A stretch of 64,000 bases of DNA from Streptomyces bambusae (GTDB lineage Bacteria; Actinomycetota; Actinomycetes; Streptomycetales; Streptomycetaceae): positions 62,001 through 126,000 of the forward strand of contig NZ_JAJAUZ010000010.1 of assembly GCF_020532645.1 (NCBI RefSeq), read 5' to 3'. Of this stretch, positions 8,842 through 14,659 are shown in pieces; within the stretch, counting starts at the first letter, position 1, and every line of letters starts with the position of its first letter. A program made the translations under genes and the position numbers. Below the pieces are notes generated by a model. That model was given only the letters and a program-made list of their open reading frames with translations, was not told where the DNA came from and made no database searches.

Positions 8842-9255
8842 CTACCCCCGAGCCCCCTCCGCCTGCGCAGCCCGCCGCTTCTCCCGGTCCACCAGCCGCC
8901 GCACCAGCCGAATCAACTCCGCCGGCTCGAACGGCTTCGCCAGGAACGCGTCGACCCCGGAGGCGACCCCGCTCTCCAGCTCGTACTGCGTACACGCGCT
9001 CACAATGGCCACCGGCAGATGCCTCGTCCGCGGATCCGACCGCAACCGCGCCGCCGTCCCGAACCCGTCCAACCGCGGCATGACCACATCCAGCGTCACG
9101 ACATCCGGCCGCACGTCGTGGACGACGTCCAGACACTCGGCACCATCGCTCGCGGTCACGACCTCGAAGCCCTCCAGCTCGAGGTTGACCCTGATCAGCT
9201 GCCGGATGACCTTGTTGTCGTCGACAACAAGCACCCGGCCCGACGCGCCTGGCAC
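8842..9255 (-). CDS. Single-domain response regulator (CheY-like receiver)
   Basis: From the GTG at 9255 the product is 137 aa and is one receiver domain: acidic pair in RVLVVDDNKVIRQL, phospho-acceptor Asp about residue 56 in VVTLDVVMPRLDG, Thr/Ser position in VAIVSACT and Lys in FLAKPFEP. There is no output domain, so it acts by protein contact or as a phosphate shuttle. The frame is open upstream to 9360, but that extension is low-complexity and starts next to the tRNA promoter, so I prefer 9255. No histidine kinase is adjacent (orphan). The tRNA-Arg gene is divergent from it. Confidence 0.85.
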   Translation of the reverse strand: MPGASGRVLVVDDNKVIRQLIRVNLELEGFEVVTASDGAECLDVVHDVRPDVVTLDVVMPRLDGFGTAARLRSDPRTRHLPVAIVSACTQYELESGVASGVDAFLAKPFEPAELIRLVRRLVDREKRRAAQAEGARG

Positions 9256-9409
9256 AACTCGAGAGTAGGTCCGCCCCGGCCCCCGCGTCCGGGTTTTCCC
9301 CACTTCCACCCCCTCCGGGCGACCCCGCCCCCGTTCCCCGCCAAACCCGTTCCTGATCACCCCCCAGAAGCTGGTAGGGTTCTACCCGTCGCCGCAAAAC
9401 GAACGACAC

Positions 9410-9481
9410 GCCCCCGTAGCTCAGGGGATAGAGCAACGGCCTCCGGAGCCGTGTGCGCAGGTTCGAATCCTGCCGGGGGCA
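9410..9481 (+). tRNA. tRNA-Arg (anticodon CCG)
   Basis: A full cloverleaf is visible. Acceptor GCCCCCG (9410-9416) pairs with CGGGGGC (9474-9480), discriminator A 9481. The D arm is GCTC/GAGC and the anticodon stem ACGGC/GCCGT encloses loop CTCCGGA with anticodon CCG at 9443-9445. The T arm is GCAGG-TTCGAAT-CCTGC. It reads CGG Arg codons. CCA is not encoded. The 3' half is the insertion target of the adjacent island. Confidence 0.97.
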
Positions 9482-9487
9482 CTTCGC
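9440..9487 (+). repeat. attL-like 48-bp direct repeat (tRNA 3' half)
   Basis: These 48 bases, from the anticodon stem to 6 bases past the tRNA, are identical to 13970-14017. A tRNA 3' end duplicated at both ends of an accessory segment is the signature of tyrosine-recombinase integration. Confidence 0.9.
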
Positions 9488-9499
9488 AGGAAGTGCCAA

Positions 9500-9539
9500 A
9501 AGACCCCGCCACCAGCAGAAACGCTGGGGACGGGGTCTT
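9500..9539 (+). terminator. Terminator of tRNA-Arg
   Basis: Inverted repeat AAGACCCCG / CGGGGTCTT with an inner CAGC/GCTG stem, starting 18 bp after the tRNA. A diverged version of the same hairpin (14032-14069) follows the right-hand att repeat. Confidence 0.8.
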
Positions 9540-9719
9540 CGCGTATGTGCAGCCGGGTGTCACGGTGGGCAGCGGCGTGACAGCCCCTGCGGCCTATACG
9601 CGGGATGGACCACACCGCATCCGCCCAGCTCAGCCCGGGAAAACGAGAAGGCCCCCGGGGCGCTCCCAGGGGCCGTGGCGCGACTGTCGCCACAAGATCA
9701 CTCGCGGCTCACGCGAAGA

Positions 9720-9950
9720 TCACTCGTACTCGTTCAGCAGGTCCTCGATCCGCCGGTTCGCCACCTCCTGCCGACCGTCGAGACACTTCGCGTACCGGCT
9801 CAGCAGCACCTCCACACTGTTGCCGGCACGCTCGGCCACCTCGGTCGGATCCACCCCCGCGTTCAGCCACGTGGACAGCGCCGAGTGCCGCAGGTAGTAC
9901 GGCGGGTCCGCGAGCGGCGAGGGCGCGACCCAGCGGACATTGGCGGCGGG
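9720..9950 (-). pseudogene. Tyrosine recombinase (integrase), C-terminal remnant
   Basis: Only the last ~75 residues remain. LADPPYYLRHSALSTWL carries the box II Arg-His, then NAGVDPTEVAERAGNSVEV and RYAKCLDG with the catalytic Tyr, ending RRIEDLLNEYE. The usual GH of the AGHS motif is AGNS here, so even the remnant has lost a catalytic His. The rest of the gene, including the N-terminal DNA-binding domains, is missing; similarity stops at about 9950 where the Nudix remnant begins. Its position beside attL is typical for the integrase that inserted the island. Confidence 0.88.
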
Positions 9951-10215
9951 GCCGGCTTGGCGGAGTGCTGGAGTTGCCCAAGTCCCCGGAGAGGGGCGTA
10001 CCCGCGAAGTCCTGGAAGAGACCGGCATCCACGTATCCGTGGACGAGCTCACCGGGGTCTACAAGAACACGACCCGAGGCATCGTCGCCCTGGTCTTCCG
10101 CTGCACCCCGACGGGCGGCACAGAACGCACCTCCAACGAGTCCACGGCTGTTGCCTGGCTCACCCCCGACGAGGTCGCAGAGCGCATGCCGAGGTCTTCG
10201 CCGTACGCCTACTAG
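9950..10215 (+). pseudogene. Nudix hydrolase remnant, frameshifted
   Basis: The core Nudix helix REVLEETGIHV is present at ~9997-10035, followed by a normal-looking domain end (VYKNTTRGIVALVFRC, STAVAWLTPDEVAERM). The preceding Nudix strand GGVLELP is readable just upstream but in another frame, and the GG...GE part of the Nudix box is missing. This indicates a small internal deletion with frameshift. The N-terminus is also gone at the junction with the integrase remnant. Not expected to be functional. Confidence 0.75.
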
Positions 10216-10310
10216 ACGCGCTGGATGGAGCCGGGCCCCACGTGCGGAGCCATGACGGGCGCCGGCTCATCCAGGCGAGCTAGGGATCCGGGCCGCCCTT
10301 CGGCCTGATC

Positions 10311-11267
10311 TCAGGCGCCCTTCCAGGCCTGGCGGTGCCGGGCCACGGCGTAGATCTGTTCCACCTGCCGGGCGTCGAGCACTCCGTTGACGTGGGCGAG
10401 GGCCGCGAGGGTGCGTTCGTCGTAGACCCGCACCTTCTGCTGGGGCGAGGCGAGTTCGACTGCTGCCGGCTGGACGAAGACGAGCAGGGGGTTCACGGCG
10501 ACCGAGAACCCGCAGTGCGCGGACAGGACCTTTGCCGCCCGCTCGGACTCACGGCGGGCCTTCCGGGGGATCGGGTACCCCGGCCCGTGATCCACTTTGA
10601 TGACGTCGTCGCCGACCCAGACGCTTCGCCCACGGAAGTTCTTGGTGTTCAGGGTGAACACGCCGCCGGGCCCGATCAGCAGATGATCTATGTCGTGCTT
10701 CGGGGGCAATGGAACGGAGTGCAGCACCTGCCAGCCGTGCCCGAGGAAGCGCCGCAGCTCCTTCCCGACCTTGCGCTCACCTTCCAGACCCTTGCGCCAG
10801 CTCTCCAATTTGGGAGGGCGCCGGAGCATCGCATCGAGGAGCCGCCGGGCTGGCCCGGGCCCTTCGGCATCCAACTTGTCCTTGAGCATGGCCCCGGGTC
10901 GGTTGCGGGCCAAGTCGTCCTCGGCAGCCAGGGGCGGCAGCGCGGGCAGTGACGAGGGCCGGGGCGGAGGCGGTGTCTGCGGCCGTGGCGGCGGCGATAC
11001 CGGCCGAGGCGGAGAGGCGGGCGGGGGAGGAGACCCAGACGGAGGCTTCACAACCTTCCCAGCAGAGCCGTGGCCGTTCGGCCGAGCCTGATCAGGCGGC
11101 ACGTACTGCGCAAGCGCCTTGAGCACCTCAGCTTTTAACTCCGGCCGGATCAACTCCAGATGCCCACTGACCTGGTCGAACCACGCCACCAGACTCCCAT
11201 TCGAGTCATTGACGTACAGCCGGTCCCGCCCATGCTTCTTCCACGCCTTGACCGTCAGATCTCCCAC
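10311..11267 (-). CDS. NERD-domain (nuclease-related) protein
   Basis: The 318-aa protein has three parts. A short N-terminal domain (1-60) is followed by a Pro-rich linker (~70-115) with many PPRP repeats, then a NERD domain (~155-300): GLEGERKVGKEL, VPLPPKHDIDHLLIGPGG, FTLNTKNFRG. The D-I-D-H (192-195) and T-K-N (208-210) motifs match the predicted active site of the restriction-endonuclease-like fold. NERD proteins are of uncertain function and occur on plasmids and islands as well as chromosomes; DNA binding or cleavage is inferred, not shown. No partner helicase is present. Spacing to neighbours is large, so it is probably transcribed alone. Confidence 0.82.
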   Translation of the reverse strand: MGDLTVKAWKKHGRDRLYVNDSNGSLVAWFDQVSGHLELIRPELKAEVLKALAQYVPPDQARPNGHGSAGKVVKPPSGSPPPPASPPRPVSPPPRPQTPPPPRPSSLPALPPLAAEDDLARNRPGAMLKDKLDAEGPGPARRLLDAMLRRPPKLESWRKGLEGERKVGKELRRFLGHGWQVLHSVPLPPKHDIDHLLIGPGGVFTLNTKNFRGRSVWVGDDVIKVDHGPGYPIPRKARRESERAAKVLSAHCGFSVAVNPLLVFVQPAAVELASPQQKVRVYDERTLAALAHVNGVLDARQVEQIYAVARHRQAWKGA

Positions 11268-11743
11268 AGACCCCCCTCAGCCGCAGCCATTCCCCACAGA
11301 ACATGGCAACAGCCAGAGCGCCGGCCGACAAGAAGGCCTCAGGCGCGTGCGGTGAAACTTTCCCTACTTCATCAAGGGCGCTTCCGCCGCCCAAGGCGGC
11401 GTCGCGCGCCCGTCGCCCCGGGCCTGCGCTCCTGTCTCCGCCCCGCCCCGCTCCAGCCCGGACCGCCGGCCGCGCGCCAATGGGCTGAAGGGTTGACGGG
11501 ATGACCGGGGCCTGCATTGCGTCTGCCGGCCGGTTAGTGGTGAGGGTGGGGAGCTGTCATCCCGTCTGCCGTCGACCCAGGCAAGCCATAGCAGACCAGG
11601 CTTCTGGGGCCCAGGTCGTTCGTCCAGCAGGGCGCTCCACCTGGGCCCCAGAAACCTGCCCCGCTATCACTCCGTGTGGGTCGACGGCAGACGGGATGAC
11701 AGCGGGGTCTGTAACGGCCGAGGGTGCCCGAGCCTTCACCCAA
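11268..11743. other. Intergenic region dominated by a long palindrome
   Basis: A 476-bp gap between the NERD gene start and the stop of the small membrane-protein gene. No plausible gene is seen; open frames here are mirror images caused by the near-palindrome at 11553-11703. Confidence 0.6.
11553..11703. repeat. 151-bp near-perfect palindrome with 27-bp perfect arms
   Basis: Outer arms 11553-11579 and 11677-11703 are exact inverted complements (27 bp). Inside, 11588-11617 and the complement of 11641-11669 also pair with few mismatches (CTTCTGGGGCCCAGGT against CCTGGGCCCCAGAAAC), leaving a small central loop near 11620-11640. It lies just after the last gene of the two-gene module. It could be a miniature mobile element, a strong bidirectional terminator, or a structured RNA. 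Confidence 0.9.
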
Positions 11744-12274
11744 TTACCCCTTGGGCGGCAGGTAGGGAATCTTCGAGTGAGCCATCCACAGCCGCTTGAG
11801 GCTCATGAGCACCGTCAGGATGAGGTGAGAGAAGAGCGCTACCAAAACCCCAGTCCACGGCCACGGAACAGCGACCTTTGGATCCGTGACGGCACTGCAG
11901 GACACCAGCGCCACAACCAACCCGAGGCCAGTCACCACAGCCCAGCTCACATTGGCAAACAACTCTTTAACATTCTTCGCCGCCTCATGATCAGAGAGAT
12001 CTTCGTCTCGCTGAAGCTTGAGGCTGAGGGTGAACACATTCGTGAGCAGCCCAAAAAGGAGCCCCGTGAAAATCCCGACACCACCCACAAGTTTCGAGAC
12101 GTCATAAAGCTCAAACTTTTCAATATGTCGAAGCGTTGCTGACAGCACGCCAAGACCCACTGGAACGCCCACGAAAGCGAAATAATCAGATTTCCTGACT
12201 CGACGCGTCCTTGCGTCCACGTACGTGCCAAAATGGGCTGCGGCGATGTCCCTGATGCTCCATTTTTCACTCAC
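11744..12274 (-). CDS. Small four-helix membrane protein of unknown function (module gene 2)
   Basis: From GTG 12274 (GAGGGG six bases upstream) the product is 176 aa. It has a hydrophilic N-terminal ~35 residues (EKWSIRDIAAAHFGTYVDAR), then four hydrophobic segments: YFAFVGVPVGLGVLSATL, VGGVGIFTGLLFGLLTNVF, VSWAVVTGLGLVVALVSC and WTGVLVALFSHLILTVLM. A charged loop between helices 2 and 3 contains LQRDEDLSDHEAAKNVKEL. It ends with a short basic tail. I do not recognise the family. It follows the 303-aa gene by 22 bp on the same strand, so they form an operon. GC and codon use are clearly lower than in the surrounding chromosome. A membrane effector paired with a soluble sensor is one reading of the layout, but this is inference. 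Confidence 0.75.
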   Translation of the reverse strand: MSEKWSIRDIAAAHFGTYVDARTRRVRKSDYFAFVGVPVGLGVLSATLRHIEKFELYDVSKLVGGVGIFTGLLFGLLTNVFTLSLKLQRDEDLSDHEAAKNVKELFANVSWAVVTGLGLVVALVSCSAVTDPKVAVPWPWTGVLVALFSHLILTVLMSLKRLWMAHSKIPYLPPKG

Positions 12275-12296
12275 GACAGCCCCCTCGGCGCAAGAC

Positions 12297-13208
12297 CTAC
12301 CCCTGCCACGTCCTTGGGTCGACGTGCATGTACTCCAGTGAAGCACCCACCTCTGACATTACGGCCGACCTGAACGTTTCATCCGTGGGCGCCGGGCCGC
12401 GCTCATCCGCGATCTCATACATGAACCGGGGAAGGGATCGGCCAACTACGATCGTTCGCTGACGCCCGTCCGTCTCGATCTGCATTCGGATCTCGTCAGC
12501 TTCGGGAAGCTGTTTCGCCGAGAATACCGTGTCAGCTGGAAGTTTCTTTTCCAGCGCCTGCTTAATCCAGGGACTGGGGAGACGTGAGCGACGCACCGCC
12601 CTCACCTTGTGCTCTTGAATTCGACTACCGACCGACCCATCTGAGTCTTGCTCATGAACGACATACGTGATCTCGTTCAGGCTCGCCTTGTCGATGAACT
12701 CGTTCCAGGCATTCGTATCCTGAAAATGATTAATCTCTGTGATCAGCTTTTCACTGTCATGCTTCCGCCGAAACCAGTCCCTGAAAGAGATCGAAAGACC
12801 GCCGAAGGCGGATGCGTGGCCAACACTTTCAGTGGCCCACAAGGCGTAATTTCCCACACTGGGAACAATGAGCGCCTGCCGGAGAGGGTAGGACGCCGCG
12901 TCATCAACGTTGATCTCATAGGCGTCCGCCCCCGTGTCAGTCTCCACGATCTTCCCGGGAACGCCGTACCGGCCCGCCTCGACCGTGAACCAGAGCGTTC
13001 GAAAGTCGACCTCGGAATCCTTCAAGCGAAGGTATCTCTCGCCCTTATCAATCCTCTTCCCGGCACCTTTAAGCTCTTCGTCGAGAAACCGATTGTAGCT
13101 ATCCAGGAGGTCTTTTCGCTGGGCTCCATATTTCGCGGCTTGCAAGCTCTCTTTGTCTCGCACCCTGCGGATGTTGATCTCGTACAGGGAGAATTGATAG
13201 CGAGGCAC
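12297..13208 (-). CDS. Soluble protein of unknown function (module gene 1)
   Basis: A 303-aa protein from GTG 13208, with GGAGGGG about six bases upstream. No signal peptide or membrane segment is present. The N-terminus PRYQFSLYEINIRRVRD leads into a Lys/Arg/Glu-rich helical part. The middle (residues ~95-170) is mixed alpha/beta with ALIVPSVGNYALWATESVG and a RDWFRRKHDSEKLITEINHF helix. The C-terminus has RTIVVGRSLPRFMYEIADER. I see no known catalytic motif and do not recognise the family. It is the first gene of a two-gene operon with the small membrane protein, in the AT-richer part of the tRNA-Arg island. The layout is compatible with a sensor/effector defence pair but nothing in the sequence proves it. 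Confidence 0.75.
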   Translation of the reverse strand: MPRYQFSLYEINIRRVRDKESLQAAKYGAQRKDLLDSYNRFLDEELKGAGKRIDKGERYLRLKDSEVDFRTLWFTVEAGRYGVPGKIVETDTGADAYEINVDDAASYPLRQALIVPSVGNYALWATESVGHASAFGGLSISFRDWFRRKHDSEKLITEINHFQDTNAWNEFIDKASLNEITYVVHEQDSDGSVGSRIQEHKVRAVRRSRLPSPWIKQALEKKLPADTVFSAKQLPEADEIRMQIETDGRQRTIVVGRSLPRFMYEIADERGPAPTDETFRSAVMSEVGASLEYMHVDPRTWQG

Positions 13209-13347
13209 GGGTCCCCTCCCTTTGGCTGCCGCAAGAGTTCGAGAGCTCAGGCTACTATCCGAACATCTCGGCGGGCAGGGGCTCTTCTCAATCAGATACC
13301 CTCCAGCTGCACCGCGGCGAGTCGCGCCTCAGTCACCTGCGACAAGA

Positions 13348-13375
13348 CTGAGGTTCCCGTGCACGGGAACCTCAG
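13348..13375. promoter_or_regulatory. 28-bp perfect palindrome, probable operator
   Basis: A perfect palindrome centred on GTGCAC (core GGTTCCCGTGCACGGGAACC), ending 4 bp before the ATG at 13380. Its position over the expected promoter or ribosome-binding region suggests a repressor or autoregulatory site. It is 140 bp from the divergent start of the two-gene module (13208), so it could act on both. Confidence 0.65.
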
Positions 13376-13379
13376 AGGT

Positions 13380-13871
13380 ATGACAACTGAGGCGAACAAG
13401 GACGCGGTACAGCGCTTAGCTGGGCAGGCACACGAAGTGGGCTGGGCATCCCTGCCTGAGGCGCCGCGTGGACTGCTTCAGCGGCTAAGCCGCGTGCTGC
13501 TGGGTCGGCCAGAGCAGCAGGACCAACCAGAGCTGGACACTCCGTGGCAAGACGTCGCCTCACCCCTGCGGAGCGGGTGGCGGGAGAGGGCGGCGAACCT
13601 CGATGGCGAGTCCGTGTTCAGCATCGACTACCGGGTCTGCTCGGCGTGCCGGCTGGCTTGGGTGGAGGAGCCCTACACCGAGCCGGAGTATCAAGGCTTC
13701 GGCTTGGCTTCGGCTGGTCTCGCCGCGCTGCGGGACGAGTACGGAGACGTGTCGTGGCACACGCTCGGCGGGCATCTCAGGGAGGCGAAGCCGTTCTGGG
13801 CTGCTGTGGGCACCGGCGTACCCGGGGAGTACCAGCGGCGTGCGTTGTGCTCCCACGTCTCCAACGGGTGA
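13380..13871 (+). CDS. GNAT-like protein
   Basis: A 163-aa protein. The C-terminal part resembles a GNAT acetyltransferase core: YRVCSACRLAWVEEPYTEPE, then the acyl-CoA-binding-like YQGFGLASAGLAALR, then WHTLGGHLREAKPFWAAVG. The N-terminal ~60 residues are Gln/Leu-rich and unassigned. The motif A signature (Q-x-x-G-x-A) is recognisable but the rest is short for a full GNAT fold. Activity is uncertain. The ATG has only AGAGG directly upstream, overlapping the edge of a palindrome; initiation may be leaderless or controlled by it. It is the last gene before the right att repeat. Confidence 0.65.
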   Translation: MTTEANKDAVQRLAGQAHEVGWASLPEAPRGLLQRLSRVLLGRPEQQDQPELDTPWQDVASPLRSGWRERAANLDGESVFSIDYRVCSACRLAWVEEPYTEPEYQGFGLASAGLAALRDEYGDVSWHTLGGHLREAKPFWAAVGTGVPGEYQRRALCSHVSNG

Positions 13872-13969
13872 GGGACGGCTTCCCGAGATGCGGCCCATTT
13901 ATGGACGGGGGACAGGGCGCAACTGCTCTCTGGCTCTTTGACCTGCGAGAACGCATGAGACGCAAGGCC

Positions 13970-14017
13970 CCTCCGGAGCCGTGTGCGCAGGTTCGAATCC
14001 TGCCGGGGGCACTTCGC
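13970..14017 (+). repeat. attR-like 48-bp direct repeat (partial tRNA-Arg)
   Basis: Identical to 9440-9487. It contains only the 3' half of tRNA-Arg(CCG), with no 5' acceptor or D arm, so it is not a gene. It marks the right end of the island. Confidence 0.9.
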
Positions 14018-14031
14018 GAGAAGTGCCGTAG

Positions 14032-14069
14032 AGACCCCGCCGCCAGCAGCAGTGCTGGGGACGGGGTCT
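14032..14069 (+). terminator. Terminator-like hairpin after attR
   Basis: AGACCCCG / CGGGGTCT stem, homologous to but diverged from the tRNA terminator at 9500-9539, followed by TTGCGT. Confidence 0.65.
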
Positions 14070-14147
14070 TTGCGTGTCTGCCGGTGGGTGCCGTTGCAGG
14101 GCAGCGGATCGCAGGGGCCGGCGGTGTGGATCGCCCGCCCCGATGCG

Positions 14148-14188
14148 CCGCAGGGCCCCGGCCGCGTGGTGCGGTCGGGGCCCTGCGG
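14148..14188 (-). terminator. Terminator hairpin of the small DUF6243-like gene
   Basis: 13-bp perfect stem CCGCAGGGCCCCG / CGGGGCCCTGCGG with a 15-nt loop, about 40 bp past the stop of the leftward gene at 14230. Confidence 0.7.
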
Positions 14189-14229
14189 CGGCTGTGCGTC
14201 GGTTCCGGGGGCGTGCCCGCGGCCGTGCG

Positions 14230-14436
14230 TCAGTCCTGGGCCGGGTCCGTGGCGGGGGCGTCCGGGGTGCCCGTCTTCTCGCGCATCTTCTGGAGGAGTT
14301 CGGCCTTCTTGTCGGCCGCGGTCTTGCGGTCGAGGTTGCGGTGGGGGCCGTTGTTCTGGCGCTCGGCGCGGGACAGCCGCTTGCGCTGGCCGCCGCCCTG
14401 GCCCACGGGGTTGTTGATGTTCTTGCTCTTGGTCAC
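14230..14436 (-). CDS. Small basic protein, DUF6243-like
   Basis: A 68-aa hydrophilic protein. The N-terminus TKSKNINNPVGQGGGQRKRL is followed by a helix KTAADKKAELLQKMREKTG and an acidic/Pro tail. The layout (NN..G.GG.R..LSRAE then AD(K/R)KAELL..M) resembles the small DUF6243 family of Streptomyces; function unknown. GTG start with GGGAGAA upstream. It is not part of the island (it lies beyond attR). Confidence 0.7.
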   Translation of the reverse strand: MTKSKNINNPVGQGGGQRKRLSRAERQNNGPHRNLDRKTAADKKAELLQKMREKTGTPDAPATDPAQD

Positions 14437-14659
14437 GGGTTCTCCCGGTCGTCGTGTCGTGCAGTGATCTACGGATGCAGCGGGTGGGGCGGGGCCGTCA
14501 CGCCCTCACTCGTAATCCGGCGTCGGGAAGAACATGACAGCGACGGTACCCGGTTCCCCCGACCCTGTGCACCGGCCTTTCGGCCGCCCGCACGACCCCC
14601 ACCGCCCGCATCGTGAAACCGTTCGCGGTGAGGAAGGGGTCCTCGCCTAGGGTGGGGTC

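Follow-up and report, generated by a model that had tools for sequence, protein, structure and literature searches.

Within a 64,000-nucleotide stretch of Streptomyces bambusae DNA (hereafter, the window; all coordinates refer to it), a 151-bp palindrome at 11553-11703 is probably the hairpin component of a single-strand (minus) origin belonging to a rolling-circle actinomycete integrative and conjugative element (AICE). Sequence comparison shows the hairpin to be conserved in structure and specific to one strand. Its copies are linked with rolling-circle rep genes by strand and by proximity, and the window copy lies next to a block that small plasmids also carry, at the position assigned to their single-strand origin (sso). 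The hairpin is most likely the site at which the host would begin the second DNA strand. The sso as a kind is already known; the hairpin itself we did not find described in our literature search, although it may be described in part in the older pIJ101 and pSN22 literature.

The preliminary description of the locus had presented a near-perfect palindrome with 27-bp perfect arms, nearly alike on both strands, that could fold into one long hairpin directly after a two-gene module. The outer arms, at 11677-11703 (the 5' side of the minus-strand hairpin) and 11553-11579 (its 3' side), are indeed complementary at 27 of 27 positions (100%), and the inner arms of 38 nt (11588-11625 and 11630-11667) are 79% complementary. 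Folding bears out the single long hairpin: on the plus strand, 11540-11715 reaches -121.8 kcal/mol (z -10.6), which none of 200 shuffled sequences equals, and among 1277 plus-strand stretches of 151 nt scanned at a step of 50 across the window, the best fold is the one at 11551 (-113.5, versus -109.4 for the runner-up). The wording on the likeness of the strands was looser than the data allow, as the identity between the palindrome and its reverse complement is 80% in a BLAST alignment and 54% without gaps, and 85% of its bases are paired. Folded as the minus strand, which we infer to be the functional one, the 151 nt give -133.5; this better fold was a first hint that one strand counts. A gap of 40 bases separates the palindrome from the end of the nearer module gene at 11744, which confirms its place behind the module, and this gene runs in the same direction as the hairpin strand. 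The palindrome has a single locus in the S. bambusae genome. As an sso would be, it is an extended imperfect palindrome that is non-coding and foldable as a single strand.

Other copies of the palindrome and covariation between its arms had been named beforehand as the observations on which a functional element would stand or fall, and both proved strongly positive. A search of the genus with the palindrome found matches at E <= 0.001 in 228 of 392 sampled Streptomyces genomes. A covariance model built from 33 copies found the hairpin in 48 of 394 genomes of the class, representing 19 of 137 genera, with stricter filters under which weak copies may be missed. In named genomes, a pattern for the loop region matched at least 120 stretches, and the matches listed include Streptomyces, Streptacidiphilus, Micromonospora, Virgisporangium, Planomonospora and Acrocarpospora. 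These pattern matches carry the loop motif by construction; the evidence that it is conserved comes from 30 BLAST loci and from the model search. A slightly shorter loop pattern had no exact match in viral contigs, and phage records gave no BLAST match.

Several side observations concern individual copies. Same-strand pairs of palindromes 2-5 kb apart occur in three genomes (G040:C1 3413646/3418890; G221:C8 75628/79350; G013:C1 3817598/3819821) and are perhaps tandem or nested elements. The plasmids pSGL1 (L287, 1505-1766) and pADI95-16d (L288, 5723-5966) carry a palindrome with a similar outer stem and another tip, as if tips were exchangeable modules. One genome (G469) gave 13 weak model rows of identical score, none of which was counted; the two that we inspected both lie in a 1.7-kb repeat (L285 1510-3209 and L286 2911-4614, 98% identical) that contains weak matches to the hairpin model. 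To us this repeat resembles an insertion sequence. The motif was also not detected by the strict pattern at L280-L284, five other weak loci.

Across 33 divergent copies, 96.9% of the cells pair, and two-sided change is seen in 23 of 32 pairs. The covariation score of these copies is 0.529, compared to 0.134 for shuffled alignments and 0.077-0.092 for slid controls, and the outer arms of a set of 75 copies likewise show compensatory changes. The part that is kept is an apical/internal-loop motif, GGTGGAGCGCCCTGCTGGACGAACGACC in the window (11614-11641, minus strand), of the form GGTGGAGCG...CGAACGACC, around which the stems change with compensation. GGTGGAGC and GAACGACC, on opposite sides of the internal loop, are retained while the stems vary widely between genera. 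The strict motif is present in 29 of the 30 BLAST-found loci that have the whole palindrome, and three distant copies retain it with a longer tip; it is not invariant, and the strict pattern missed it in 6 of 56 fetched regions. With other copies and covariation both positive, the reading as a structured single-strand element holds.

The kinds of pairs in these copies also indicate which strand folds. Read on the window's minus strand, 75 copies and 55 pairs comprise 3590 Watson-Crick, 467 G.T, 11 A.C and 49 other cells. When pairs that most often take the G.T form are set aside, 144 G.T cells stand against 11 A.C (at least 13 to 1), and the outer arms alone give 118 against 7. Counted by pair, any G.T occurs in 31 of 55 and any A.C in 9 of 55; the cells come from related copies and are not independent events. 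The 75 copies, mostly from Streptomyces but including pMR2 and one Streptacidiphilus copy, were drawn from 96 distinct ones after removal of 15 divergent copies and of 6 that were broken or truncated. The excess of G.T over A.C argues that one strand, the window's minus strand, does the folding. Since a duplex or cruciform site would give no G.T bias, the element should act single-stranded, either as displaced DNA or as RNA.

G.T tolerance is equally expected of an RNA, and together with the covariation it would fit equally well a structured RNA of the same strand, whether regulatory, involved in copy control or a processed 3' end; the co-directional gene 40 bases ahead of the window copy suits such an RNA as well. 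Against it, a scan limited to sigma-70-like promoters found 0 in 11200-12000, the conserved 5' flank is short and C-rich with no promoter visible, and no Rfam 15 family reaches threshold. At an E-value threshold, the Rfam search of 9000-14500 placed over the palindrome only mir-607, at 29.4 bits versus a gathering score of 94, and at the gathering threshold a search of nine loci returned one tRNA and nothing else. The close tie to rolling-circle replicons, described below, also speaks against an RNA, the main rival, which we regard as unlikely though worth keeping in mind.

The preferred reading, a single-strand origin, draws further support from the sequence beside the hairpin. About 80 nt past it begins a block on the minus strand (11472-11348, hereafter the CTTGAT block) that blastn aligns with pIJ101 (NC_001387, 7377-7264; E 3e-8) and, for less of its length, with pJV1 (NC_001759, 6718-6802; E 7e-4), where gene order puts the sso (sti) of these plasmids. 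Within it, on the same strand, lie a GGAGCGGGG..GGAGACAGGAGCGC motif (11426-11454) and, after a short GC-rich hairpin, the end motif CTTGATGAAGTAGGGAAAGTT (11356-11376). In pIJ101, the block sits 3' of rep and ahead of korB. The accessible portion of PMC4170104 gives the pIJ101-type order as rep - spdA2 - sso, uses sso and sti for the same site and reports that single-stranded DNA accumulates upon its inactivation. From this gene order, rather than from printed coordinates, we infer that the block is the sti region. The resemblance to the sti/sso of pIJ101 and pJV1 lies in the homologous block, in the lack of coding sequence and in the place on the rep strand, behind rep and in front of korB/korA. 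The difference lies in the palindrome, whose motif GGTGGAGCG/CGAACGACC is absent from pIJ101 and pJV1, so that the neighbouring block alone is tied to a known sso.

A CTTGA element occurs past 128 of the 187 distinct palindromes, no more than 900 nt away (median 306 nt); among random stretches drawn from the fetched regions, 31 of 1200 have one. The linker GCCGGAGGC follows 154 of the 187, versus 60 of 1200 random stretches; the window copy has no linker. Conservation extends about 300 nt beyond one palindrome arm. The S. bambusae genome matches the CTTGAT block at one more place (82%, G000:C67:134636-134745, L168), at which no palindrome was detected.

The hairpin is linked to rolling-circle replication genes in a largely constant orientation. 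Among the RepSA matches listed (PF20199, the pSAM2 initiator family), 44 of 80 hairpin copies have one within 15 kb, against a random expectation of 0.74; those 44 RepSA genes, again among the matches listed, all lie downstream in the hairpin direction at 1.4-11.2 kb, 43 of them on the same strand. The count compares 80 hairpin rows of at least 70 bits (better strand only) with 131 RepSA rows, weak fragments left out, in 52 genomes that were picked for carrying the hairpin, and the same-strand order with rep may reflect common descent of gene order. For the other 36 copies, no RepSA is listed in that range. In fetched regions without RepSA, a recurrent AICE ORF lies downstream in 12 of 20, compared to 12 of 50 upstream control stretches; this count uses mechanical six-frame ORFs and leaves out 4 weak regions of 60 and the 6 of 56 without the strict pattern.

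Plasmid and AICE records extend this pattern. Rep was found in 12 of 13 plasmid records, and in all 12 the palindrome, the CTTGAT block or a BLAST-matched linker region is on the rep strand. As a side observation, the 16.4-kb S. cellulosae plasmid record CP109096.1 (L165) appears to consist of two 8.2-kb plasmid units joined head to tail. As expected of an sso, the palindrome thus sits on rolling-circle replicons: apart from the 44 copies near a listed RepSA, it is carried by pMR2 and by an S. longwoodensis plasmid. The element pMR2 has RepSA, and its palindrome lies about 150 nt beyond a tRNA-like sequence (the presumed attP) that follows int. In the S. longwoodensis plasmid, the palindrome is located between korA, whose product is 86% identical to pIJ101 KorA, and the next gene; the Rep is pIJ101-like (36% identity) and weakly Rep_1, below the Pfam cut-off, and no CTTGAT block was found by pattern. 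The part of PMC3218068 at hand describes pMR2 as an AICE and the namesake of a RepSA subfamily, and that of PMC4595007 places an sso usually upstream of the dso, with exceptions.

The same linkage to RepSA could suggest that the hairpin is the dso or another RepSA binding site, with the nick in or near it, and HUH initiators do often use hairpins. We had in fact first taken CTTGAT for the dso nick site. That assignment was dropped, and our reading moved from dso to sso, on two grounds: the gene order of the plasmids and the presence of CTTGG(G/T)A sites, which we take to be dso nick sites, near the rep start (inside or just upstream) in 5 of 7 plasmids, apart from the hairpin; pJV1 and pMR2 have none near the rep start. 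Moreover, the same motif accompanies different initiators (RepSA in pMR2 and the pIJ101-like Rep in the S. longwoodensis plasmid), which favours a host reader and makes a dso improbable.

Other readings fare worse. That the palindrome serves DNA transfer as a clt, or is a target of site-specific recombination, might be supposed from its place in pMR2, beside the presumed attP and int, and from the clt of pIJ101, which lies near korB according to the available text of PMC3583192. As far as that text and the corresponding part of PMC4170104 go, clt consists of repeats bound by TraB, which transports double-stranded plasmid. TraB acts on duplex, and a duplex site would not yield G.T over A.C at 13 to 1 or more, which leaves such a site very unlikely. 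We give equally little credence to the bidirectional terminator that the preliminary description placed after the two-gene module: it would explain a stable hairpin behind a gene, but there is no T-run and terminator-like sites number 0, and the strand bias, the conserved internal loop and the copies in other contexts are at odds with it. A miniature inverted-repeat transposable element, also proposed at first for its terminal inverted repeats and consistent with copies across many genomes, can practically be dismissed, given the one locus in the genome, the lack of a target-site duplication flanking the 151-bp unit, conservation for about 300 nt past one arm, the steady position relative to rep, and stems that vary between genera while the loop is retained.

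The element that hosts the window copy is itself recognizable. Exact direct repeats of 48 bp (9440-9487 and 13970-14017, plus strand) bound 4.6 kb, with the palindrome between them; the first is an att copy at the 3' end of a tRNA-Arg (CCG) gene (9410-9482, plus strand), the integration target. Beyond the second att copy (just past it, at 14051-14251) lies the next strongest foldback of the 151-nt scan. From this far repeat, the order is an ORF ending at 13871, the two-gene module (gene two at 12297-13208 and gene one at 11744-12274, both on the minus strand and with no family found), the hairpin, the CTTGAT block, a NERD-domain protein gene (10311-11267, minus strand; PF08378, E 6e-17), and the C-terminal remnant of a Nudix gene (9973-10287, plus strand; Pfam NUDIX), whose end adjoins that of a tyrosine integrase C-terminal remnant (9720-9962, minus strand; PHROG 1 integrase, E 7e-4; no Pfam match in 9720-10052), followed by the tRNA. 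The hairpin and the integrase remnant share a strand and the tRNA is on the opposite one, a layout that recurs in several fetched elements. ORFs in 4 of 6 queried palindrome regions resemble the Nudix remnant, with 60-78% identity across 72-105 residues. Of 92 query ORFs (5 of them the longest ORFs of RepSA loci), only Nudix-region ORFs matched within 9300-14100. We also sought the downstream flank in 20 relatives for an empty site, and found five homologous loci, none with an adjacent tRNA; no empty site was seen.

The element resembles an AICE in having att repeats and in being integrated at the 3' end of a tRNA gene, whereas rep, traB and an integrase of its own were not found in it by these comparisons (of the integrase, the C-terminus alone was recognized). 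Most likely, judging from these remains, an AICE lost rep, its transfer genes and most of int while retaining its ends, origin region and cargo. With no rep found and with integrase and Nudix remnants only, the window copy would be a relic or helper-dependent. The NERD gene, which adjoins the sso-like block inside this defective element, is probable cargo. The two-gene module, which has no match in Pfam, PADLOC, NCBIfam or PHROGs (11744-13208), looks like cargo beside the hairpin, between att and the origin region, and is a candidate for an undescribed defence or competition module. The preliminary description had also considered a structured RNA belonging to this module; the structured single-strand element stands, but the palindrome appears to belong with the host element's replication backbone and not with the module.

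If the hairpin is a single-strand origin, it may act as follows. The excised circle would be copied by RepSA, and the displaced strand, corresponding to the window's minus strand, would fold into the hairpin and expose the internal-loop motif GGTGGAGCG/CGAACGACC. A host factor, either primase or RNA polymerase, would then read the motif and prime synthesis of the complementary strand. For pSN22, the accessible part of PMC4170104 cites priming that does without RNA polymerase, which makes primase a reasonable guess. Residing in a defective element, the window copy would be a relic of this process or would depend on a helper element. Two origins side by side, hairpin and block, would not be odd, since pMV158 has two single-strand origins according to the portion of PMC4595007 available to us.

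The closest functional parallels are ICEBs1 sso1 and the sso of Bacillus plasmids, which, from their description in that portion of PMC4595007, are orientation-specific single-strand hairpins of a rolling-circle element or plasmid, as is proposed for the hairpin here; by the same account, ICEBs1 sso1 differs in having been shown experimentally and in comprising three stem-loops. The closest parallel in genomic context is pMR2, an AICE that carries both the palindrome and the CTTGAT element. AICEs such as pMR2 and pSAM2 share RepSA, Int and a tRNA target, as stated in the available part of PMC3218068. Compared to them, the window element retains only the att repeats, the origin region, Nudix and Int remnants, and cargo.

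We lean, with little more than even confidence, toward an undescribed class of sso, defined by a GGTGGAGCG/CGAACGACC loop on a freely varying stem, that would serve AICEs and plasmids of several actinomycete families with any Rep, via a conserved host priming factor. Our search, as far as the texts it reached go, found no account of how the single-stranded intermediate of an AICE is converted to duplex. For this step, a hairpin present in 228 of 392 sampled Streptomyces genomes is a candidate origin of second-strand synthesis. It could also serve to mark worn-down elements, and it could lead to the factor that primes single-stranded DNA in actinomycetes.
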